Below the pieces are notes generated by a model. That model worked only from the letters and a program-made list of their open reading frames with translations. It was not told where the DNA came from and searched no databases. Below are positions 2 to 21,205 of a stretch of 64,000 nt of DNA, in pieces. A program made the position numbers and the translations under genes. Origin of the DNA: Erythrobacter sp. EC-HK427 (GTDB lineage: Bacteria; Pseudomonadota; Alphaproteobacteria; Sphingomonadales; Sphingomonadaceae). The stretch is from the NCBI RefSeq assembly GCF_902498745.1, contig NZ_LR701479.1, positions 1,819,663-1,883,662 on the forward strand, given 5' to 3'. How positions within the stretch are numbered: position 1 is the stretch's first letter; each line of letters begins with the position of its first letter.

Positions 2-511
2 CCCGACTGGCCGCTGCCCAAGCTGTTCCGCGTAAAGAAGGCGGGCAAAGTGGACCGCGCGATCTTCGAAGGCGCGACGATTAACACCCCCTCCATGCTG
101 GCGGTGGAAGATTATATCTGGTGCCTTGAATGGGCGAAGTCGATCGGTGGGCGTGCCGCGCTGATCGAGCGGGCGAACTCCAACGCGCAGATCGTCAAGG
201 ACTGGATCGAAGCGACCCCGTGGCTGCGCAATATGGCGAGCGATCCCGCGCAGCAGACCAATACCGGCGTGTGCATGGTGTTCCAGGGCGAATGGTATGA
301 CAGCCTGTCCGAAGAGGACAAGGCGGGTGTGCCCACGAAAATCGCCGCCAAGCTGGAAGCGCTCGATGTCGGTTACGATTTCAACGGCTACCGCGATGCC
401 CCTCCGGGCCTGCGCATCTGGTGCGGCGGCTCGGTGGAAGCCGAGGACGTGCGCCGCCTGCTGCCGTGGATCGAATGGGCTTACGAAGAGCTGAAAGCCG
501 GACGGCTGTAG
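2..511 (+). CDS. serC: Phosphoserine aminotransferase, C-terminal part (5' end outside window)
   Basis: Catalyses transamination of 3-phosphohydroxypyruvate with glutamate to phosphoserine, the second step of serine synthesis, using PLP in the cytosol. The reading frame is open from base 2, so the N-terminal half including the PLP lysine lies upstream of the window. The visible 169 residues contain the family stretch FEGATINTPSMLAVEDY and the C-terminal segment ending in PPGLRIWCGGSVE, typical of the alphaproteobacterial SerC type. serA, the preceding step of the pathway, follows 134 bp downstream on the same strand, which supports the call. Seen directly: partial frame and motifs. Inferred: operon with serA. 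Confidence 0.9.
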   Translation, partial: PDWPLPKLFRVKKAGKVDRAIFEGATINTPSMLAVEDYIWCLEWAKSIGGRAALIERANSNAQIVKDWIEATPWLRNMASDPAQQTNTGVCMVFQGEWYDSLSEEDKAGVPTKIAAKLEALDVGYDFNGYRDAPPGLRIWCGGSVEAEDVRRLLPWIEWAYEELKAGRL

Positions 512-534
512 GCCAATCGCCACGCTTCCTTCCC

Positions 535-624
535 CGCTCATCCTGAGCTTGTCGAAGGATCGCTTTTTCTTTTTCCGCCGCGCCTGAAGTGAAGGGCAAC
601 CCTTCGACAAGCTCAGGGTGAGCG
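535..624. repeat. Palindromic intergenic repeat, copy 1 (CTGAGCTTGTCGAAGG family)
   Basis: Arms at 535-558 and 601-624 are 24 bases long and complementary except for one position that can form a G-U pair. They enclose a T/C-rich loop of about 42 bases. The core CCTGAGCTTGTCGAAGG recurs at 45522-45602. It lies between serC and serA, so it would be part of a serC-serA transcript and fold into a long hairpin. No T-tract follows the stem, so it is not a standard intrinsic terminator. Confidence 0.85.
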
Positions 625-645
625 GTTGTTTTAAGGTATAGTCAC

Positions 646-2244
646 ATGACCAAACCCAAAGTTCTCATTTCCGACAAGATGGACCCCAACGCCGCGCGCA
701 TTTTTGAAGATCGTGGCTGCGATGTCGATGTCATCACCGGCGAAACGCCCGAACAGCTGATCGCCCGGATCGGCGACTATGACGGCCTCGCCATCCGTTC
801 GTCGACAAAGGTGACGCGCGAAATCCTCGATGCGGCGACCAATCTGAAGGTCATCGGCCGTGCCGGGATCGGGGTCGACAATGTCGATATTCCCTACGCC
901 TCGTCCAAGGGTGTGGTGGTGATGAACACGCCGTTCGGCAATTCGATCACCACGGCGGAACACGCCATCGCGCTGATCATGGCGCTCGCCCGGCAAATCC
1001 CGGCGGCCAATGCGCAGACGCAGGCGGGCGAATGGCCCAAGAGCGCGTTCATGGGCGTCGAAGTCACCGGCAAGACGCTCGGCCTGATCGGCGCGGGCAA
1101 TATCGGCTCCATCGTCGCGAGCCGCGCGCAAGGCTTGCGGATGAAAGTGATCGCCTATGATCCGTTCCTGACCGCCGAGCGCGCGGTGGAACTGGGTATC
1201 GAAAAGGTCGATCTGGGCGCGCTGGTGGCGCGGGCCGATTTCATCAGCCTGCACAGCCCGCTGACCGACGAGACTCGCAATATCCTCAGCCGCGAACGGC
1301 TGGAGCAGACCAAGAAAGGCGTGCGGATTGTCAACTGCGCGCGCGGCGGTCTGGTGGACGAAGCGGCGCTGAAGGATATGCTCGACAGCGGGCATATCGC
1401 CGGGGCCGCGCTCGATGTGTTCGCGGTCGAGCCGCCCGCGAAGGATCACCCGCTGTTCGGCACGCCCAATTTCATCTGCACCCCGCATCTGGGTGCCTCG
1501 ACCACCGAAGCGCAGGTCAATGTCGCCTTGCAGGTGGCCGAACAGATGGCGGATTATCTCGTCAATGGCGGCGTGACCAACGCATTGAACGTGCCGAGCC
1601 TCAGCGCCGAGGAAGCACCGCGCCTGAAGCCCTATATCGCGCTGGCGGAAAAACTCGGCTCGCTGGTCGGGCAGTTGGAAGGGCCGGATGTGACCGCGAT
1701 AAGCGTCGAAGTCTCCGGCGCGGCGGCGGAACTGAACCTGAAGCCGATCACCGCGGCGGTGCTCGCGGGCATGATGCGCGCCTGGTCGGACACGATCAAC
1801 ATGGTCAACGCGCCGATCCTGGCGAAGGAACGCGGGCTCGATGTCGCCGAAGTGCGGCACAATGACGAAGGCGATTACCACACGCTGCTACGCATTGTCG
1901 CCATCACGCCCGACCGCCGCCGCGAGGTTGCAGGCAGCCTGTTCGGCGAATCCGAAATGCGGCTGGTGGAAATCGCCGGAACCCGGATCGAAACCGATCT
2001 GGAAGGCCATATGATGTATATCGTCAACGAAGACCGCCCCGGCTTTATCGGCCGCTTGGGTTCGGTGCTGGGCGAGGCGGACGTCAATATCGGCAACTTC
2101 CACTTGGGCCGCCGCCTGCCCGACAAGCATCGCGGCGGGGACGCTGTGCTGCTGCTCTCGGTTGACCAGCAACCGGGCAAGGAGGTGCAGGATGCCGTGT
2201 GCGCGCTTGATGGCGTGAAGAAGGTGAAGGCGCTGAGTTTCTAA
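646..2244 (+). CDS. serA: D-3-phosphoglycerate dehydrogenase
   Basis: Oxidises 3-phosphoglycerate to 3-phosphohydroxypyruvate with NAD+, the first step of serine synthesis; cytosolic. The 532-residue length fits the long SerA type: a catalytic and NAD-binding unit, an ASB domain (about 320-450) and a C-terminal ACT domain (about 455-530) for allosteric control. The NAD loop GAGNIG is at 149-154, and the catalytic set is Arg233 (CARGG), Glu262 and His281 (TPHLGA). The ATG at 646 gives a normal N-terminus (MTKPKVLISD). It sits behind serC and in front of hisZ on the same strand. A repeat lies on either side of the gene. Confidence 0.97.
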   Translation: MTKPKVLISDKMDPNAARIFEDRGCDVDVITGETPEQLIARIGDYDGLAIRSSTKVTREILDAATNLKVIGRAGIGVDNVDIPYASSKGVVVMNTPFGNSITTAEHAIALIMALARQIPAANAQTQAGEWPKSAFMGVEVTGKTLGLIGAGNIGSIVASRAQGLRMKVIAYDPFLTAERAVELGIEKVDLGALVARADFISLHSPLTDETRNILSRERLEQTKKGVRIVNCARGGLVDEAALKDMLDSGHIAGAALDVFAVEPPAKDHPLFGTPNFICTPHLGASTTEAQVNVALQVAEQMADYLVNGGVTNALNVPSLSAEEAPRLKPYIALAEKLGSLVGQLEGPDVTAISVEVSGAAAELNLKPITAAVLAGMMRAWSDTINMVNAPILAKERGLDVAEVRHNDEGDYHTLLRIVAITPDRRREVAGSLFGESEMRLVEIAGTRIETDLEGHMMYIVNEDRPGFIGRLGSVLGEADVNIGNFHLGRRLPDKHRGGDAVLLLSVDQQPGKEVQDAVCALDGVKKVKALSF

Positions 2245-2247
2245 TCT

Positions 2248-2342
2248 CCCCTCCCGCTTGCGGGAGGGGCCGGGGGAGGGCCTGTAACCCGCCCCGCGCC
2301 AGTGACATTCCCTCCCCTAACCCCTCCCGCAAGCGGGCGGGG
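2248..2342. repeat. Paired GC-rich palindromes between serA and hisZ
   Basis: Two short palindromes lie in the 142-bp serA-hisZ gap. The first has 10-bp arms at 2248-2257 and 2260-2269 (CCCCTCCCGC, loop TT). The second is the same motif at 2321-2342 with loop AA and one arm mismatch. They are separated by GGGGGAGGG and CCCTCCCC tracts that are also mutually complementary, so the whole stretch can fold as one long stem. No poly-T follows. Probably a repetitive extragenic palindrome pair. Confidence 0.75.
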
Positions 2343-2386
2343 AACAAGGTTTCGACAAGCCGGAAGGTGGTCGCTAGAGGAACCCC

Positions 2387-3499
2387 ATGACCATCCCCAC
2401 GCAAGACCTCCTGCCCGAAGGCCTCGAAGACCGCTTGCCGCAAAGCGCGGCGGCGGCGGCGCGTATCCAGCGGGCGATGCTCGATGTGATGCGCAGCCAT
2501 GGCTATGACCGCGTCCGCCCGCCGCTGATCGAATTCGAACAGAGCATGGCCAAGCGGATGGACGGGGTGCAAACGCGCCGGCTGTTCCGCTTTGTCGATC
2601 CCAAAAGCCTGCGCTCGCTCGCTTTGCGCAGCGACATGACGGTGCAGGTCGGGCGTATCGCCGCCACTGGTCTCGCCAATGCACCGCGCCCGTTGCGGCT
2701 CGCTTATGCGGGACAAGTGGCGCGCATCCAGGGCGATATGCTCGACCCGCGCCGCGAATACCAGCAGGTCGGGGCCGAGCTGATCGGCAGCGATAGCGTG
2801 GCGGCGGCAAGCGAAGTGGTGGAGTTGGCGATCCTAGCGCTGGAAGCGGCGGGGGCGCACGGCATTTCGGTCGATTTCACGCTGCCCGACCTGGTCGATA
2901 CGCTGGCCGACGGGCCGCTCCCGCTGACCCCGCAGCAGCGCGTGACGGTGCGACGCGAGCTCGATGCGAAGGATGCAGGTGCACTCGTGGAGGCGGGGGG
3001 CGCTGCCTATCTGCCGCTGATCCACGCGACGGGGCCATTTCCCGCAGCGGCGGAGAAGCTCGCCGCGCTCGATGCGACCGATGCGCTCGCCTCGCGCATC
3101 GAAGGACTGCGCGCGATTGCCGAGCGGGTGCAAGGCCGCGCCCGTGTGACGCTCGATCCGAGCGAGCGACACGGTTTTGAATACCAAAGCTGGTTCGGCT
3201 TCACGCTCTATGCCGAAGGGGTGCGCGGCGCGCTGGGGCGCGGCGGCACCTATCGCATCGGCGGCAGCGAGGAAGTGGCGACGGGCTTTTCGCTCTTCCC
3301 CGATGCGCTGGTGGAAGCTGTCAAGGCTGCCGAGGATCTCGGCCGCAAGCTGTTCCTGCCGTTGGGCCATGACCGCGACGCGGCGGCCCGGCTGCGCGCC
3401 GAAGGCTGGCGCACGGTCGCTGCGCTGGCGGATGGCGATGACGCCGCGCTGCTCGGCTGCACGCACGTGCTTGATGGCGGCAAAGCGAAAGCGGTTTAG
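2387..3499 (+). CDS. hisZ: ATP phosphoribosyltransferase regulatory subunit
   Basis: HisZ is a catalytically inactive paralogue of histidyl-tRNA synthetase that binds and activates the short form of HisG, the first enzyme of histidine synthesis. The 370-residue protein shows the class II aminoacyl-tRNA-synthetase-like fold: the opening DLLPEGLEDRLPQSA, the motif 2-like RSDMTVQVGRI and ARIQGDMLDPRREYQQVGAE, and the late GGGTYRIGG segment. No anticodon-binding domain follows, as expected for HisZ. The ATG at 2387 has AGAGGA five bases upstream. hisG is not in the window. The 3' end overlaps the convergent esterase gene by four bases. Confidence 0.93.
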   Translation: MTIPTQDLLPEGLEDRLPQSAAAAARIQRAMLDVMRSHGYDRVRPPLIEFEQSMAKRMDGVQTRRLFRFVDPKSLRSLALRSDMTVQVGRIAATGLANAPRPLRLAYAGQVARIQGDMLDPRREYQQVGAELIGSDSVAAASEVVELAILALEAAGAHGISVDFTLPDLVDTLADGPLPLTPQQRVTVRRELDAKDAGALVEAGGAAYLPLIHATGPFPAAAEKLAALDATDALASRIEGLRAIAERVQGRARVTLDPSERHGFEYQSWFGFTLYAEGVRGALGRGGTYRIGGSEEVATGFSLFPDALVEAVKAAEDLGRKLFLPLGHDRDAAARLRAEGWRTVAALADGDDAALLGCTHVLDGGKAKAV

Positions 3500-4356
3500 C
3501 GCAGGATTTCGGCGAGCCAGGCATCGACCACGGCGGTCGCTGGATAGTCCGGATCACCCAATCGCACATTGATCTCCCGATGGCCACGCAGGCCGCGCCC
3601 GGCAAAACCTTGCACGCGTGCGGGTGTGCCAGCGGCTTGCAGCGCCGCGGCAAGCGCCTCGCTCTGCTGCGCGCCATCGCGCCGTTGCACGTGAAGGATA
3701 AGGAAGTTCGGCGCATTCGGGCCTTCGGCATGGAATGTCGGCGAAAGCGCGCGCTGGCGGGCAGGATCGCTCCCGAAGGCTGCGGCATAGGTGTCTTGCA
3801 TGATACGGTTGCCGTCTTCGATCTGGCGGGGGACATCATAGGCCGCGCCGTCCAGCGGCAACACGCCGCGCAGGTCGCTATCGCTCATGCCCACACCGCG
3901 CAGATATTGCGGATCGGTTCCCACCAGCGCGACGAGATGCGCGCCAGCCGAATGGCCGGTCAGCACAATCCGTCCGGCATCCAGCCCGAGCTCTGCCGCG
4001 TTTGAACGTAAATGCGCCACCGCGCTCGCCACATCGCTGGCCTGCTGCTCCACCGTTGCATCGGGCACCAGCCGGTAATTGACCGAAGCCACGGCATAGC
4101 CCTGCGCCTGCCAGTGCCGCAGCTTGTCCGAATCCACCATCATCCGCATATCGCCGCGCGACCAGCCGCCGCCATGGACGAACACGATCACCGGCGCATT
4201 GCGCGATGCGCCCGGCCAGAACATCATTTGCTGCAAGCGTTCATCGCCATAGGCGATCGTCTGCGCGTCGGGCAGGGCGAGGCGGGTCTCGATCTCCGCT
4301 TGTGGCAGAGCAGCAAGCGGATGGGCGAGCGCGAAGAGGAGCGCGTAGGTCAGCAT
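3496..4356 (-). CDS. Secreted alpha/beta-hydrolase (esterase/lipase, BD-FAE/HSL-like)
   Basis: Likely an exported carboxylesterase of unknown substrate. A short signal peptide (MLTYALLFALAHPLAALP) is followed by an alpha/beta-hydrolase: oxyanion motif HGGGW at 61-65, nucleophile elbow GHSAG at 134-138 (Ser136), and a plausible acid/His pair near the C-terminus (GHREI). The ATG at 4356 was chosen over an in-frame ATG 45 bases upstream because AAAGGA lies seven bases before it and it puts the hydrophobic signal at the N-terminus; 286 residues. It points against hisZ. DUF1501 and DUF1800 genes lie upstream on the same strand. Substrate cannot be read from sequence. Confidence 0.8.
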   Translation of the reverse strand: MLTYALLFALAHPLAALPQAEIETRLALPDAQTIAYGDERLQQMMFWPGASRNAPVIVFVHGGGWSRGDMRMMVDSDKLRHWQAQGYAVASVNYRLVPDATVEQQASDVASAVAHLRSNAAELGLDAGRIVLTGHSAGAHLVALVGTDPQYLRGVGMSDSDLRGVLPLDGAAYDVPRQIEDGNRIMQDTYAAAFGSDPARQRALSPTFHAEGPNAPNFLILHVQRRDGAQQSEALAAALQAAGTPARVQGFAGRGLRGHREINVRLGDPDYPATAVVDAWLAEILR

Positions 4357-4434
4357 GGCACAGTTCCTTTCACCGCCCATTTTCGCGTCGGGCAGGGGCA
4401 AAGGCCAGTCGCAAAATGTCGGAAAGTGTCGCGG

Positions 4435-5859
4435 CTACACCGCCGCCTGCATGAACCCCAGATCGGGCGCGGCGAACTGGCCGATATTGGGCGAGATGCT
4501 CGGCAACTCGCTGGAGGAGACACCGAACCACTTCGCCAAAGTCGCCGAATATTCATCGACCGAGGTGGTCGGCAGCAAGCGGCCTTGGCCGACATCGTCC
4601 GGCCCGTCCACCGCGATCACCGGTGCCCGGCCATAGAAGCGCCCGCCATTCACCGCGCCGCCAAGGATGAAATGGTGGCTGCCCCAGCCATGATCCGAGC
4701 CATCTCCATTCGATGCCAGCGTGCGCCCGAAATCGGAAGCGGTGAAGGTCGTCACCTGGTCACTGACACCTTGCGCCACCATTTCGCGGTAGAAAGCGTC
4801 CATCGCGAAATCGACCTGGCCCAGCAGCGCCTCGTGCGATCCGATCAGCCCGTCATGGTGGTCAAAGCCGCCGATGCTCACGAAGAAGACCTGCCGGTTC
4901 ACTTGCAGGGCACTGCGCGCGCTGATCATCTGCGCCACCGTGCGCAGCTGGCCAGCGAGCCCGTTGCCCGAGCCGAAATCGGTGCTGATCGTTGCGCCTG
5001 CCAGCGCGCTGTTGACGAAATCGCCATAGGTGATCGATCGCGCCAGCGTTTGCGCGTGATCGGCCTGCAACATATGGCCGTGGTGGACGGTCAGCAGGCT
5101 GTTCAGCGCATCGCGCACAGCGGCGGAATTGTAGACCCGCTGGTTCAGCCCGCGAATGGTCACCGCGCCGCCATTGGAAATCTGGTACGGCACGGCATCT
5201 TCGCCCGCGAGGAAAACCGCATTGCCCGATGCGTTGATCGCGGTGAACATGGCGTTGGTGTTGCCCGACAGGGCGAGATCGCCCATGCGCCCGCCCCAGC
5301 CGGTGATCGAGCCTTCGGGCTGCGAACTTTGCCAGGTCGATTGCTGGTCATTATGGCTGAACAGCTTGGCCGGGCGCGGATAGCGCGAATTGTTGTCACT
5401 TTCATATTGCGCCTTGGTCAGCGGCACCACCAGCGGCCCGACATTGAGCAGCGGCGCCATCGTGCCTTCGCGATACCGCTGGGCAAGGCGCGGCATGGTG
5501 GGCGCGAGCGCCAGCGTCATGTCGTCGGTCAGCGTCTGGCCCTGCGGGGTGGGGAGCAGGGTATTGGCCAGGCTCGATTGCGCCAGCGCGATCCCGCCAT
5601 CCGCCGCGCGCCCGCGAATGTTGAGATAGCGGCCGTAATTAGTGTCATCGAACGGGATCAGCGTGTTCGCATGGTCGTTCCCGCCATACAGGAACACGCA
5701 CACCAGCGCCTTGTATCCGCCCGCCGAGCTGAAGGCTGCGGCTTCCGCCATTCCCGCAAGGCCCAGCGCGTAGGATGATGCGCCACCGAGGATGGCGAGC
5801 TGTCCCGAACGGCGCAAGAAGGCGCGGCGCGAAATCTCGATATCTTTGCCGATAAACAT
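4435..5859 (-). CDS. DUF1501 family Tat-exported protein
   Basis: A 474-residue protein of the DUF1501 family, distant relatives of sulfatases/alkaline phosphatases, function unproven. The N-terminus carries a twin-arginine signal (SRRAFLRRSGQ, residues 10-20) followed by a hydrophobic stretch ending AEAAAF, so export folded to the periplasm is expected. The family opening ALVCVFLYGGNDHANTLIP and later GGFDHHD and SDHGWGSHHF segments are present; these His/Asp clusters look metal-binding. The ATG at 5859 has TAGGAG nine bases upstream. It starts 11 bases after the DUF1800 stop, so the pair is almost certainly cotranscribed, a pairing seen widely in bacteria. Confidence 0.88.
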   Translation of the reverse strand: MFIGKDIEISRRAFLRRSGQLAILGGASSYALGLAGMAEAAAFSSAGGYKALVCVFLYGGNDHANTLIPFDDTNYGRYLNIRGRAADGGIALAQSSLANTLLPTPQGQTLTDDMTLALAPTMPRLAQRYREGTMAPLLNVGPLVVPLTKAQYESDNNSRYPRPAKLFSHNDQQSTWQSSQPEGSITGWGGRMGDLALSGNTNAMFTAINASGNAVFLAGEDAVPYQISNGGAVTIRGLNQRVYNSAAVRDALNSLLTVHHGHMLQADHAQTLARSITYGDFVNSALAGATISTDFGSGNGLAGQLRTVAQMISARSALQVNRQVFFVSIGGFDHHDGLIGSHEALLGQVDFAMDAFYREMVAQGVSDQVTTFTASDFGRTLASNGDGSDHGWGSHHFILGGAVNGGRFYGRAPVIAVDGPDDVGQGRLLPTTSVDEYSATLAKWFGVSSSELPSISPNIGQFAAPDLGFMQAAV

Positions 5860-16981: not shown

Positions 16982-18244
16982 ATGGATCATTTCGCAATCA
17001 GAGACGGCGAACTTCACGCCGAAGACGTGCCGCTGTCGCGCATAGCGGAGGACGTGGGCACGCCCGTCTATGTCTATTCGCGCGCCACGTTTGAACGCCA
17101 TGCGCGGGTTTTTCGCGCAGGGCTGGACGGGCTGGAGAAGCCGCCCCACCTTGCTTTTGCGGTGAAAGCCAATCCCAATCTCGCGGTGCTGCGCCTGCTC
17201 GCCAATGAAGGCTACGGCGCGGATGTGGTCTCGGGCGGAGAGCTGGCGCGCGCGCTGCTCGCCGGAATGCCTGCGGAGGACATCGTCTTTTCCGGCGTCG
17301 GCAAAACCGGTGCCGAGCTGGTGCAGGGGCTGGATGCCGGGATCGGCCAGTTCAACATCGAATCGGGCGAAGAAGGGCGCGAGCTTGCCGCTATTGCTGC
17401 CTCGCGCGGGCAAGTGGCGCGCTGCGCGCTGCGGGTGAACCCCGATGTCGATGCGGGCACGCATGACAAGATTTCCACCGGCAAGGCGGACAACAAATTC
17501 GGCGTGCCCATCGGCCATGCGCCCGAACTGTTCGCCGAACTCTCGGCGCTTCCCGGCATCGAACTGCGCGGGCTGGCAGTGCATATCGGCAGCCAATTGT
17601 CCGACCTCACCCCGCTCGAAACCGCCTTTGGCAAATTGGGCGAAATGCTCGTGCGGCTGCGGAGCGAGGGGCACAGCATCACCCATATGGATCTGGGCGG
17701 CGGCATCGGCGTGCCCTACAGGCCGGGCGAGCGCACCCCGTCTCCGGCGGAATATGGCGCGATGGTCGCGCGCGTCACCAAGGGCTGGGGCGTCACGCTG
17801 ATGTTTGAGCCAGGGCGGGTGATTGCGGGCAATGCAGGCGTGCTGCTGACCCGCGTGATCCGCGTGAAGCGCGGGCTCAACAATCCCTTCGTGATCGTCG
17901 ATGCAGCGATGAACGATCTGGCGCGCCCTGCGCTCTACGGCGCCTATCACGGATTTACCGCCGTGCGGCCCACGGGTGAGCGGATGACCGCCAATATCGT
18001 CGGCCCGATCTGCGAGACGGGCGATACCTTTGCCACCGACCGCGAAACCGACGCGCTGGTTTCCGGCGACCTCGCGATTTTCCGCACCGCCGGGGCTTAC
18101 GGCGCGACCATGGCGTCGAGCTACAACTCGCGCGGCTTTGTGGCCGAGGTGATGGTGGATGGCAGCGATTATGCGGTCGTCGCAGACCGCATCCTCCCCG
18201 GCAGCATCGCCGATGCCGAGCGCGTGCCGGACTTCCTCACCTGA
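16982..18244 (+). CDS. lysA: Diaminopimelate decarboxylase
   Basis: Decarboxylates meso-diaminopimelate to L-lysine with PLP. Lys62 in LAFAVKANPN is the Schiff-base lysine. HIGSQLSDL, DLGGGIGVPY and MFEPGRVIAGNAG form the phosphate and PLP contacts of the TIM barrel, and GPICETGDTF supplies the active-site cysteine from the partner subunit. 420 residues, the usual length. The ATG at 16982 has GAGGGG six bases upstream. It follows the lptM-like gene by 92 bp and its stop overlaps the next start (TGATG). Confidence 0.97.
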   Translation: MDHFAIRDGELHAEDVPLSRIAEDVGTPVYVYSRATFERHARVFRAGLDGLEKPPHLAFAVKANPNLAVLRLLANEGYGADVVSGGELARALLAGMPAEDIVFSGVGKTGAELVQGLDAGIGQFNIESGEEGRELAAIAASRGQVARCALRVNPDVDAGTHDKISTGKADNKFGVPIGHAPELFAELSALPGIELRGLAVHIGSQLSDLTPLETAFGKLGEMLVRLRSEGHSITHMDLGGGIGVPYRPGERTPSPAEYGAMVARVTKGWGVTLMFEPGRVIAGNAGVLLTRVIRVKRGLNNPFVIVDAAMNDLARPALYGAYHGFTAVRPTGERMTANIVGPICETGDTFATDRETDALVSGDLAIFRTAGAYGATMASSYNSRGFVAEVMVDGSDYAVVADRILPGSIADAERVPDFLT

Positions 18245-19032
18245 TGCAGCAATTGCCGCTCTTCCACTCGATTGCCGGACAGCCGGTGCTGGTGCTGGGC
18301 GAAGGCGAGATGGCAGAGCCCAAGGCGCGGCTGGTGGCTCGGGCGGGCGGGCGCATCGTTTCCGATATGCAGCAGGCCATCGACGAAGGCGCGCGGCTGG
18401 CCTTTGTCGCGCACGATGATGCCGCGATGTGCGAGGCCGATGCGATCCGCCTGCGCTGTGCGGGAATGCTGGTCAACGTGGTTGACCGGCCCGACCTGTG
18501 CGACTTTACAACGCCGAGCATTCTCGACCGCGATCCGGTTCTGCTGGCGGTGGGGACGGGCGGTGCTTCTGCCGGGCTGGCCAAGCAATTGCGGTTGCGG
18601 CTCGAAAAGCTGCTGCCCGCCGATCTCGGCACGCTAGCCGACCGGCTGTTTGCAATGCGCGAGGCGATCAAGGCGCGCTTTCCCGTGATGGCCGAGCGCC
18701 GCCGCGCGCTCGACGCGGCCTTGGGCGAGGGCGGGGCGCTCGATCCCTTGCGCGCGGGGAGCGCGGAGCGGATTGCGGACTGGCTGGAGCAAGCTGCGGA
18801 CGTGCAGCCGGGCGAAGTGCACGCCTTCACCCTCACCAGCGCCGACCCCGACGACCTGACCCTGCGGCAAGCGCGGCTGCTCGGTAGCGCGGATGTGGTG
18901 ATTGCCGATGCGGGCATGCCCGCCGCCATCCTGCAACGCGCCCGCGCCGATGCGCAGCGGCTTTTGCCGGATGAGGCAAGGGCTGATTCTCAAGGGCTTA
19001 CCGTCATCCTCCGGTTTGATGTGGGTCAATAA
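18244..19032 (+). CDS. Siroheme synthase-like protein (CysG N-terminal domain with vestigial methyltransferase tail)
   Basis: The first roughly 180 residues match the precorrin-2 dehydrogenase/sirohydrochlorin ferrochelatase half of CysG: VLVLGEGEMAEPKARLV for NAD binding, NVVDRPDLCDF at 78-88, PVLLAVGTGGASAGLAKQLR at 98-117. Residues 190-243 (GEVHAFTLTSADPDDLTLRQARLLGSADVVIAD) align in pattern with the first strands of the uroporphyrinogen-III methyltransferase domain. The SAM loop AGPGDP is replaced and the domain stops after about 55 residues. It probably makes siroheme for sulfite or nitrite reductase while methylation is done elsewhere. The ATG overlaps the lysA stop by one base. 262 residues. 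Confidence 0.78.
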   Translation: MQQLPLFHSIAGQPVLVLGEGEMAEPKARLVARAGGRIVSDMQQAIDEGARLAFVAHDDAAMCEADAIRLRCAGMLVNVVDRPDLCDFTTPSILDRDPVLLAVGTGGASAGLAKQLRLRLEKLLPADLGTLADRLFAMREAIKARFPVMAERRRALDAALGEGGALDPLRAGSAERIADWLEQAADVQPGEVHAFTLTSADPDDLTLRQARLLGSADVVIADAGMPAAILQRARADAQRLLPDEARADSQGLTVILRFDVGQ

Positions 19033-19137: not shown

Positions 19138-19326
19138 ATGAAATTTCCCAAGATTGACCTGTCCAGCCTGCCGGACCTTGGAACGCTGACCGGAATGTTC
19201 GGCTCCATCGCCGATCCCACGTCGCCGACCGATCCCGGCCCCGGCCTGCCCGGCCCCGACGATACCATCGTGGTGCTGGCAACGCTGGTGTATGACAGCG
19301 CCCCGCCCAGCGGCGGCCTGTTCTAG
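19138..19326 (+). CDS. 62-residue peptide, first gene of an uncharacterised three-gene cassette
   Basis: A short frame, MKFPKIDLSSLPDLGTLTGM onward, with a Pro/Gly/Asp-rich middle (DPTSPTDPGPGLPGPDD) and a C-terminus of hydrophobic strand plus APPSGGLF. The ATG at 19138 has GAAGAGGA about nine bases upstream. There is no signal peptide, transmembrane helix or cysteine. Size, composition and position directly ahead of two larger unknown genes resemble a ribosomally made peptide precursor, but a structural or partner role is equally possible. I do not recognise a named family. Reality is supported by the good ribosome site, its own 105-bp upstream gap and the 17-bp distance to the next gene. 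Confidence 0.6.
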   Translation: MKFPKIDLSSLPDLGTLTGMFGSIADPTSPTDPGPGLPGPDDTIVVLATLVYDSAPPSGGLF

Positions 19327-19343
19327 AAGGCGGGCGGCTCCCG

Positions 19344-20318
19344 ATGGATGTGCATCCGTTCATCGCGGCGCTGCGGAGCGACCGGGCTCCGCAGCGCCAG
19401 GCCCAGAGCGCGATGGAAGCCGCGCGCACCGCGTGGCGGGCAGAGCCCGGCGCGGCGCAGATGATGGCCGAGCTGGAGCGGTACGGGAACGGCGCGTCGC
19501 TCACCGATTGCCCGCAGCTGGAAGCGGTGTTCACCGGGCAGGGCGAGGCCGAGCGGCTGATGGCGCTGCTCAGCCGCCATTATTGCGCGGCGCTTGCCGC
19601 CAATCCCATCGGCCACCCGCCGTTCCGCCACGGCTTCAACGGCAGCGCGGGGACGATCCTGCTCGCCCGTTCGGGCCGCGCGCAGATCATGCTCCAGAGC
19701 CGCGAGCCGGGGGACTTCCGGCAGGCGAGCTACAAATACACCGACGCCACCCGCTTCGATGCGGTGCTGGCAGGCGCGGGCGAAGCGCGGATCGTGCGCG
19801 CTCGGCCCGCTGCTGGTGAGGGCGAGAGGATGGACTTCACCGAAGAAGCTGTGCCCCTCGCTGCCGGCGGACGCTTCGCCTTCGATTGTTCGAGCGAGGC
19901 TTTGGTGACGGACAGCGTCACCCGCCGCATCGTCATGCTGCGCCTGTTGCGCGCCAATGCTGCCCCCGCGCCGAGCCGCGAGTATGCAGCCGCTACGGGC
20001 GAGCTGCTGCTGCAAAGCGCCGCCACCATCGCCACCAGCCGGCAAGAGGCGATCATCGCGCTGCTCGGCCGCATGGGGCGCACGGATGCCGCTCCCGCCA
20101 TCGCCCGAACGGCACTCGGCGAAGGAGACCTTTCGCTGCGCTGGCAGGCACTGCGCGAATGCCTTGCGCTCGACACGAAGGCGGGCTTCACCGCGCTGCT
20201 CGCTCTCGCAAGACGCAGCGACGATCCGCTCGCCGCCCATGCCGGTGCCTTGCGCGCGCAATTGCTCGAAACCCATCCCCAACTCGCCCAATGGGAGGCG
20301 CGCCAATGCCCCGCGTAA
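19344..20318 (+). CDS. Uncharacterised protein with C-terminal HEAT-like repeats
   Basis: 324 residues, no signal or membrane segment. The N-terminal half (about 1-180) is mixed and contains FNGSAGTILLARSGRAQIMLQS, a beta-rich core. The C-terminal part (about 210-320) is a run of helix pairs (REAIIALLGRMG-RTDAAPAIARTAL; LRWQALRECLALDTKAGFTALLALARR) typical of HEAT repeats, a protein-binding scaffold. It begins 17 bases after the short peptide gene and overlaps the following gene by 13 bases, so translational coupling is likely. I cannot assign a function; a binding partner or adaptor for the cupin-like protein is an inference. Confidence 0.65.
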   Translation: MDVHPFIAALRSDRAPQRQAQSAMEAARTAWRAEPGAAQMMAELERYGNGASLTDCPQLEAVFTGQGEAERLMALLSRHYCAALAANPIGHPPFRHGFNGSAGTILLARSGRAQIMLQSREPGDFRQASYKYTDATRFDAVLAGAGEARIVRARPAAGEGERMDFTEEAVPLAAGGRFAFDCSSEALVTDSVTRRIVMLRLLRANAAPAPSREYAAATGELLLQSAATIATSRQEAIIALLGRMGRTDAAPAIARTALGEGDLSLRWQALRECLALDTKAGFTALLALARRSDDPLAAHAGALRAQLLETHPQLAQWEARQCPA

Positions 20319-21205
20319 TCGACTGTCCCGACACCACCAGTTGCGAGCTGGGTGAATGCATCGACGCGCTTTATGCCCAAGGCTTCCACCCGTGGGAGGA
20401 GGAAAGCCTGCTGGGCGCGGCGGGCTGGCTGCGGAAGCTGGGAAATAACCGCGACTTCCTCGGCGATATGTTGGTTGACGAGCTCAAACGCGGGATCAAG
20501 GCGGCGGAGGATGCGAGCGATTACGGCCCGCAAGTGGTGATGCTCTCCACACTCGGCAGCGAGTTTTATATGCGCGCCAATTTCTGGCCGGGCGAGGACG
20601 AACATATGTTCCGCGCCAGCGGGCACTCGGCCTTCAGCTATCACTTGCCGCACGATCACAATTTCGACTTCCTGACGGTCGGCTATTTCGGCCCCGGCTA
20701 TTCGAGCGATTATTACGAGTATGATTACGAGAGCGTCGCCGGGATTGTCGGCGAGAAAGCGGGCTTGCGTTTTGTCGAGCGATCCACGCTGACGCCCGGC
20801 AAGCTGATGCATTATCGCGCGCACCGCGATGTGCATTCGCAATTGCCGCCGCAAAGCCTCTCGGTCTCGCTCAACATCATGCACGCAGGCGGCGCGCAGG
20901 GCTGGCTCGACCAGTATCGCTTCGATGTCGAGCGGGACGCGATTGCGGGCGTTATCAGCGCGGGCGGGAGCGAGACGTTTCTGCGCGTGGCTGTCGGGCT
21001 GGGGGGCGGAGAGGCGCGCGATCTGGCGCACCACTTCGCCGGGTCGCACCCCAGCGACCGGATGCGGCTGGTGGCGCTGGATGCGCAGGCCGGCGTGCTG
21101 GATGCGGAGGAACGCGATGCGCTTTGGCGGCGGGCCGAGGCATCGGGCAGCAGGCTGGTGGCGGGCGAGGCCGCACGGCGGCGGCGGGCGCTCGCGGCCG
21201 CTTAG
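20306..21205 (+). CDS. Uncharacterised histidine-rich, cupin-like protein
   Basis: 299 residues, cytosolic. A beta-rich central region carries a dense set of possible metal ligands: His113, His116 and His118 (YHLPHDHNFDF), acidic residues in DYYEYDYES (136-143), and His169, His173 and His177 (LMHYRAHRDVHSQLPP). The spacing, with two histidine clusters separated by a beta hairpin and GEKAG-LRFVE strands, looks like a metal-binding cupin or 2-oxoglutarate-oxygenase-type barrel. The C-terminus is helical and Arg/Ala-rich. The ATG at 20306 overlaps the HEAT-like gene. It may be an enzyme acting on the small peptide or on a cellular protein; no family name is certain. Confidence 0.65.
   Translation: MPRVIDCPDTTSCELGECIDALYAQGFHPWEEESLLGAAGWLRKLGNNRDFLGDMLVDELKRGIKAAEDASDYGPQVVMLSTLGSEFYMRANFWPGEDEHMFRASGHSAFSYHLPHDHNFDFLTVGYFGPGYSSDYYEYDYESVAGIVGEKAGLRFVERSTLTPGKLMHYRAHRDVHSQLPPQSLSVSLNIMHAGGAQGWLDQYRFDVERDAIAGVISAGGSETFLRVAVGLGGGEARDLAHHFAGSHPSDRMRLVALDAQAGVLDAEERDALWRRAEASGSRLVAGEAARRRRALAAA

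Follow-up and report, generated by a model that had tools for sequence, protein, structure and literature searches.

A conserved peptide gene beside a thiol-dioxygenase-fold protein pair in Sphingomonadaceae: a probable undescribed peptide-modifying system

Introduction

Three adjacent genes in the window, the 64,000-nucleotide stretch of Erythrobacter sp. EC-HK427 DNA that was analysed, probably make up an undescribed system for the chemical modification of a gene-encoded peptide, because the trio is conserved within a single bacterial family and some of its distant cousins lie beside exporters or leader-cutting proteases. The genes encode, in this order, a short peptide (P0001), a partner protein (P0002) and an enzyme candidate (P0003), and on balance we favor reading them as an O2-dependent enzyme/partner pair that modifies the co-encoded peptide (Table 1). 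If this reading is true, the trio would introduce a novel type of enzyme pair that acts on peptides, most of them without cysteine, by means of a fold known from thiol oxidation, and such a system would have become established in a single family's core genome. None of the three window proteins scores above the cut-offs of Pfam or NCBIfam, and a literature search at the level of titles and abstract beginnings found no description of this system.

Table 1. Features of the three-gene cassette (window positions; residue numbers are those of the encoded protein)
Feature	Position	Strand	Basis
Ribosome-binding site of P0001, AAGAGGAA	19124..19131	+	sequence
Gene of the short peptide P0001 (62 aa), the proposed target of modification	19138..19326	+	conservation, pN < pS
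Conserved leader-like N-terminal segment, residues 1-23, with F-G-S at its end	19138..19206	+	residue conservation
Core-like hydrophobic strand, residues 41-53, DDTIVVLATLVYD	19258..19296	+	residue conservation
324-aa partner (P0002) with N-terminal helical part, cupin-type barrel and HEAT-like C-terminal part; probably a non-catalytic P0003 homologue	19344..20318	+	
P0002 beta-barrel domain, residues 95-225	19626..20018	+	model
P0002 HEAT-like helices, residues 229-321	20028..20306	+	model; PF13646 below cut-off
P0003, 299 aa, proposed catalytic subunit: thiol-dioxygenase fold followed by C-terminal helices	20306..21205	+	
H116-D117-H118, proposed metal ligands 1 and 2	20651..20659	+	116/116 rows; align with HDH of CDO/3MDO homologues
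D175-V176-H177, proposed metal ligand 3	20828..20836	+	H177 115/116; aligns with D-I-H of 3MDO homologue
S188-L-N190-I-M192, site of the thiol dioxygenase Ser-His-Tyr	20867..20881	+	alignment
P0003 C-terminal helices, residues 221-298, related to those of P0002	20966..21199	+	model; profile-profile alignment

Results

Organization of the cassette

An initial annotation made from the letters alone had drawn the three frames, and its coordinates and lengths (62, 324 and 299 residues) proved exact, as did its spacing: a 17-bp gap between P0001 and P0002, an overlap of P0002 and P0003 (13 bp) and a 105-bp gap upstream. The ribosome-binding site that it had noted, AAGAGGAA, indeed precedes P0001, and purine-rich sites stand ahead of the short frame in many relatives (by eye). 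Upstream of the cassette lie genes for a siroheme-synthase-like protein and a PLP decarboxylase (presumably lysA); downstream, a convergent RuvX gene is followed by the gene for a DUF3089 protein. The siroheme-synthase-like protein (18244-19032) matches NAD_binding_7 and CysG_dimeriser, with a methylase-domain match that is short and below cut-off, and its gene is close to the cassette in 52/80 loci (best 80 of 128 relatives). A promoter and terminator scan and an Rfam search gave nothing above chance or threshold. P0003 has one match in its own 3.14-Mb genome, and its nearest fetched relative is found in Aurantiacibacter marinus (83%).

The short peptide

A genome collection was scanned for P0003 relatives; 128 were confirmed, and the analysis continued with the best 80 of them. 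At 79 of these 80 loci (best 80 of 128), tblastn places P0001 upstream of P0002, and the sole miss is a contig (L076) that begins inside the second gene; the short frame is thus conserved and adjacent, the check on which the initial annotation had made its cassette depend. The aligned P0001-type peptides (n = 80, 46-62 aa) have two conserved parts flanking a variable linker, the first reading roughly M-x-L-P-K-I-D-L-S-S-L-P-D-L-D-T-L-T-G-x-F-G-S and the second roughly D-D-x-I-V-V-I-M-x-x-V-Y-E/D. P4, P12 and G22 each occur in 80/80 peptides, residue 23 is S, T or A in 79/80 and F-G-S is found in 62/80; beyond the linker, D42 is kept in 78/80, Y52 in 77/80 and D or E at residue 53 in 78/80. Cysteine is absent from 75/80 of these window-type peptides. 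In this family the C-terminal part, close to the end of the peptide, is conserved and not variable; many RiPP cores are variable.

P0001 evolves as a protein. Mean pN was 0.19 and mean pS 0.55 over 66 pairs from 12 close sequences, with pN < pS in 66/66 of these pairs and in 3140/3160 pairs of all peptides. A chance frame is therefore ruled out, because P0001 is in the same place in 79/80 loci (best 80 of 128) and pN is below pS in every close pair. Across 118 genomes of the order, a peptide profile matched 17 at E 2e-5 or better, at one place each, and four more only weakly, in a chance-like manner; at least five P0003-positive genomes of this draw (G039, G044, G056, G062, G116) had no profile match, and in these five the short frames were picked out by eye despite the miss. 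The short frames are unmatched in the libraries searched, Pfam and NCBIfam included, and the record of an Alteromonas plasmid that carries a P0003 relative lists no gene over its short frames, its gene table being incomplete.

P0003, the enzyme candidate

The predicted structure assigns P0003 the thiol-dioxygenase (cysteine dioxygenase) fold, that is, the cupin-type barrel of CDO_I and 3MDO, followed by C-terminal helices. Residues were counted over 116 aligned rows, comprising 79 of the P0003 alignment (A1) and 37 diverged ones, with one gene entered twice (as L106 and L123): H116 and H118 are present in 116/116 rows and H177 in 115/116 (37/37, 37/37 and 36/37 in the diverged rows), W94, G129 and G131 in 116/116 each and D175 in 115/116. 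By alignment only, H116, H118 and H177 correspond to the three histidines of thiol dioxygenases, whose modelled ligands in 3MDO are His 90, 92 and 142 in the available text of PMC8050391. Not all the histidines singled out in the initial annotation fared equally: these three stood, whereas H113 is histidine in 6/116 rows and H173 in 83/116. Its guess of a metal-dependent oxygenase gains support from the predicted fold and the near-invariant three-histidine positions.

Comparison of the P0003 family with eight CDO/3MDO homologues gave a profile match with a score of 33.1, a pairwise E of 7.5e-4 and a probability of only 25%, in which HDH falls on HDH and D-V-H on D-I-H; column shuffles reached that score in 0/60 cases (maximum 20.8). 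At the site of the Ser-His-Tyr triad, the family has S188 in 115/116 rows, N190 in 113/116 and M192 in 91/116, and since His-Tyr is thus mostly replaced by Asn-Met, we do not class P0003 among the thiol dioxygenases. The triad is described as helpful, with activity possible without it (PMC8050391, available text). PF05995 has no match in P0003 or elsewhere in its own genome, and DUF692 has none in the window proteins at E up to 10. A weak match to DUF693, another family than DUF692, appeared at E 0.061; DUF693 also matched 23/79 P0003 relatives (best E 0.053) and was dropped. PDB sequence searches with P0003, A1 and the P0002 alignment (A2) returned nothing beyond one chance-level mini-protein at E 1.4.

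The P0003 frame looks interrupted in some relatives. Seven genomes of genus g6 (G221, G139, G134, G228, G137, G206, G068) have one in-frame stop within the P0003 match, and at L028 (5001-5438) the frame ends after 146 residues while the tblastn match is near full length, which may reflect a broken frame or a mistake in sequencing. A1 accordingly omits L028, as well as L078 (contig end); A2 omits L010, L024, L033 and L076 (without a full frame) and L060 (over-long frame).

P0002, the partner

The model of P0002 shows an N-terminal helical part, a barrel (about residues 95-225) and helices again from about residue 229. The initial annotation had described HEAT-like helices in a plain scaffold or adaptor; the helices are borne out in the C-terminal part of the model, but the protein is not mainly HEAT, having a barrel and a PF13646 (HEAT_2) score of 15.9 bits against a cut-off of 27.7. 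PF13646 does exceed its cut-off in relatives (35.4 bits in the diverged P0004; 36.7 bits at L133:8018-9010). Library scans of alignment members gave weak matches only, of which HEAT_2 was the sole fitting one (41/76 P0002 relatives, 10/79 P0003 relatives).

The idea of a plain scaffold itself gives way to a different relationship, in that profile comparison and shuffles make P0002 a diverged homologue of the oxygenase-like P0003. Deep sets of the two families (116 + 108 rows, none shared) aligned with a score of 72.8 and a probability of 96.4. The 141 columns of this alignment take in the latter half of the barrel and the helices that follow, and shuffles reached the score in 0/60 cases (maximum 21.5). 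The relation emerged only with the deeper sets; hhalign with the first, shallow alignments found none (probability 0.1). The best histidine column of the P0002 family holds His in 67/108 rows, versus near-universal histidines in P0003. Judged from these profiles, P0002 is a diverged P0003 homologue without the histidine signature and is probably a non-catalytic partner. Its likeness to CDO is a statement about fold only, because Foldseek ranks seed-storage cupins first.

Distribution in Sphingomonadaceae

P0003 matches occurred in 78/246 genomes of the order, all Sphingomonadaceae (G119 and G234 with weak partial matches only), and in 3/289 genomes of a class-wide draw, again all of this family. 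P0002 is present at 80/80 loci by tblastn (best 80 of 128 P0003 relatives). The initial annotation had asked whether the larger genes occur apart; they are found together in 80/80 core loci (best 80 of 128), in 17/20 diverged family loci and in 15/17 distant stretches. The diverged set comprises 20 family loci with weaker or unusual P0003 matches. RuvX is encoded near the trio in 73/80 core loci (best 80 of 128) versus 2/20 diverged ones, and at least one of ruvX, DUF3089, cysG-like, lysA and lepB in 77/80 core loci (best 80 of 128) versus 9/20; therefore, the core form has mostly kept a single inherited location, and some of the diverged members are found at other sites. That the cassette is an artefact of shared chromosomal position is ruled out, since the same arrangement is seen at other chromosomal sites and on a plasmid as well. 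A tree of the catalytic family, built from 57 rows (20 of the 79 in A1 among them), places the core-position sequences together in a clade with support of 100/99; the nine exporter- or protease-linked stretches all lie across the midpoint root, but that split is too weak (82/96), and several branches are too long, for a history to be read from it.

Diverged and distant relatives

The partner profile matches 17/20 diverged loci, the remainder being two contig-end loci and L106, where a HEAT partner was recognised by place and Pfam. A small frame precedes the pair in 18/18 assessable diverged loci (by eye; L111 and L112 were excluded as contig ends, and L105 is weak, with a TTG start); 7 of these 18 are supported by the peptide profile (E 1e-5 or better). 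A strict leader motif, which was formulated once the peptides had been seen, occurs in 7/49 small frames next to the pair versus 0/1134 elsewhere, and a loose motif in 9/49 pair-adjacent small frames versus 4/1134, the latter being absent in 9/18 loci.

Beyond these loci, P0003 relatives are carried on the Alteromonas plasmid and, more weakly, on a Vibrio plasmid (2 records). Eight of 385 genomes matched: four Sphingomonadaceae, three only at E about 0.003 and one further, high-scoring alphaproteobacterium. A draw across the phylum gave matches in 15/398 genomes, 2 of them outside Sphingomonadaceae, and the families of those 2 held P0003 matches in 6/149 and 6/147 genomes; phage records held no match to P0005. 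The distant set of 17 stretches from 16 genomes or records shows a partner profile match beside the P0003-like gene in 15/17, four of these 15 being rows of the profile itself; L168 and L172 are unmatched by that profile. A plausible short frame with a ribosome site lies beside the pair in 13/17 (by eye), and no convincing one was seen by eye at L134, L149, L167 and L169.

Double-glycine-like leaders are present in three diverged genomes (L106, L173, L174). The peptide of L106/L123 reads ...LTLDEADVVSAGALENP... and lies beside divergent HlyD and C39-ABC genes; those of L173 and L174 read ...ELTLEDAEFVSGG/GIPPFIGYQEPPIEEL. Positions -4, -7 and -12, which C39 leader proteases read as hydrophobic (PMC10885120, available text), are occupied there by V, A and L, and the division into leader and core is plainest at L173. 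Several diverged and distant peptides end in a hydrophobic stretch, and no core residue common to all peptides was seen in the two sets. Two short frames beside diverged pairs resemble multi-core precursors: that at L166 (8002-8193) repeats a core-like stretch (STLFIFAA/STAFIFAA), and that at L168 (2601-2732) has internal repeats (PPQNQ/PPQDQ). At L173, the double-glycine peptide and pair are preceded, at a distance of about 3 kb, by a long gene (82-5166) whose first part was scanned and contains AMP-binding, carrier and condensation domains (NRPS type).

Exporters and leader proteases

Twelve exporter and protease queries, taken from five distant records, were run on all distant records, the family loci and the window. 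They matched 9/17 distant stretches, equal to 8/16 records, of which five were the query sources themselves (G039, the Alteromonas plasmid, G733, G1240 and G1241); among the non-query records, G986, G1055 and G1125 matched (3/11) and the other 8/11 did not. There were matches in 0/80 core loci (best 80 of 128) and none in the window, and among 100 family loci plus the window only L106 (the same place as L123) matched. Pfam, applied to part of the neighbour genes, named a C39-ABC protein at L123 (with HlyD there too, scanned as L106), HlyD/ABC/MacB at L133, an S49 peptidase and ABC protein at L170, two TldD/PmbA-type proteins at L171 and HlyD with AcrB at L150; all told, HlyD/ABC/MacB sets are present at L133, L164 and L170. 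In G1241 (L169, L170), three P0003-like genes and their partners lie within about 14 kb, together with MacB-type exporter genes and the S49 peptidase. The Erythrobacter genome itself has no C39 and no TldD/PmbA match.

Core loci are 10 kb or longer in 61/80 cases (median 10.9 kb) and distant stretches 10.6-19.5 kb; the contrast in exporters and proteases between distant and core loci is only suggestive, given the lesser length of most core loci and the origin of the queries in distant loci. The analogy with ribosomally made and modified peptides (RiPPs), already drawn in the initial annotation, is strengthened by the relatives beside C39-ABC, HlyD/MacB, RND and TldD/E proteins and by the double-glycine-like leaders.

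Discussion

Proposed mechanism

In the mechanism that we propose, P0003 would be a mononuclear non-heme iron enzyme of the thiol-dioxygenase fold with H116, H118 and H177 as ligands, and P0002, as a diverged homologue without the metal signature, would pair with it, probably as a heteromer. The HEAT-like helices and the P0002 barrel would bind the N-terminal, leader-like half of P0001, and a residue within the conserved C-terminal part would be oxidised by P0003 with O2; we infer the peptide's role as substrate of P0003/P0002, and likewise the heteromer, the iron, the O2 and the site of modification. Distant members seem to remove the leader and export the product in a RiPP-like manner. The window member looks like a core-genome relative in which export was lost or never present, and since it lacks a local exporter or leader protease, its product may remain in the cell. 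The weak points of this reading are the conserved C-terminal part of the peptide and an own genome without a leader protease match.

A broader proposal, which we put forward as speculative, is that pairs of thiol-dioxygenase-fold HEAT proteins, one catalytic and the other not, define a RiPP-like class, and that in Sphingomonadaceae this class has become domesticated in the core genome, is not exported and yields a conserved intracellular product or a modified small protein. PQQ and mycofactocin, which are peptide-derived cofactors, are comparable in logic to such a domesticated form.

Alternative explanations

The likeliest alternative, to which we assign a rather low probability, is that P0001 is a permanent small subunit or regulator of P0002/P0003 and that what the enzyme oxidises is a small molecule or a different protein. 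The conservation of both peptide ends across 80 sequences would fit a fixed subunit, as would the mostly single core position (ruvX in 73/80 loci and exporter matches in 0/80, best 80 of 128) and the want of a C39 or TldD/PmbA match in the genome; such a subunit, however, would have no need of the exporters and proteases that adjoin some relatives, and the short frames of distant relatives are very different, with double-glycine-like leaders in three genomes. It is less probable still, and in our view unlikely, that the pair serves, without catalysis, as a cupin/HEAT receptor or chaperone for a hydrophobic peptide, with a metal site that is structural or senses metal or oxygen. The replaced His and Tyr of the triad and the hydrophobic stretch that ends several peptides are what such a role would predict, but three histidines that are near-absolute even in highly diverged members fit catalysis better, and the triad is reported to aid thiol dioxygenase activity without being essential in the available text of PMC8050391.

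That P0003 is an ordinary cysteine or 3-mercaptopropionate dioxygenase with incidental neighbours we consider very improbable: although it has the same fold and, by alignment, the same three histidines, most members carry Ser-Asn-Met for Ser-His-Tyr, PF05995 is unmatched in the genome, and neighbours that include the partner in 80/80 and the short frame in 79/80 core loci (best 80 of 128) are hardly incidental. Modification of P0001 by the P0003/P0002 pair remains the reading we prefer.

Comparison with known systems

P0003 resembles the thiol dioxygenases (CDO, 3MDO and mercaptosuccinate dioxygenase) in the fold and aligned histidines described above; in contrast to them, it mostly has Ser-Asn-Met at the triad, carries extra C-terminal helices, lacks a PF05995 match and has a diverged partner and a small peptide gene alongside. 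Like RiPP loci with PCAT (C39-ABC) or TldD/E, the trio has a short gene with leader-like and core-like parts conserved beside putative modifying genes (79/80 loci, best 80 of 128; 18/18 diverged loci by eye), and relatives extend the likeness with C39-ABC (L123), TldD/PmbA-type (L171) and HlyD/ABC/MacB (L133, L164, L170) proteins. Unlike such loci, the window has no exporter or protease match, its genome has no C39 or TldD/PmbA match, and its peptide family is conserved close to the end.

DUF692 proteins are TIM-like barrels, whereas the model of P0003 is a cupin-type barrel without a DUF692 match at E up to 10. The make-up proposed for the trio, an enzyme, a partner and a short gene, is nevertheless that of the MNIO (DUF692) systems, in which a non-heme iron enzyme acts with a partner protein and a short precursor (PMC12257519, available text). 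PbsQ, described in the same text as a cupin-fold, JmjC-related RiPP hydroxylase that hydroxylates a residue of a ribosomal peptide, is alike in its fold and in the action proposed for P0003; it differs in its JmjC relationship, and the available part of PMC12257519 does not mention a HEAT part or dead partner for it. For the pairing of P0002 with P0003, TldD/TldE offers an analogy only, being a protease of another fold in which an active and a catalytically dead homologue form a heteromer that acts on a peptide (PMC10885120, available text).
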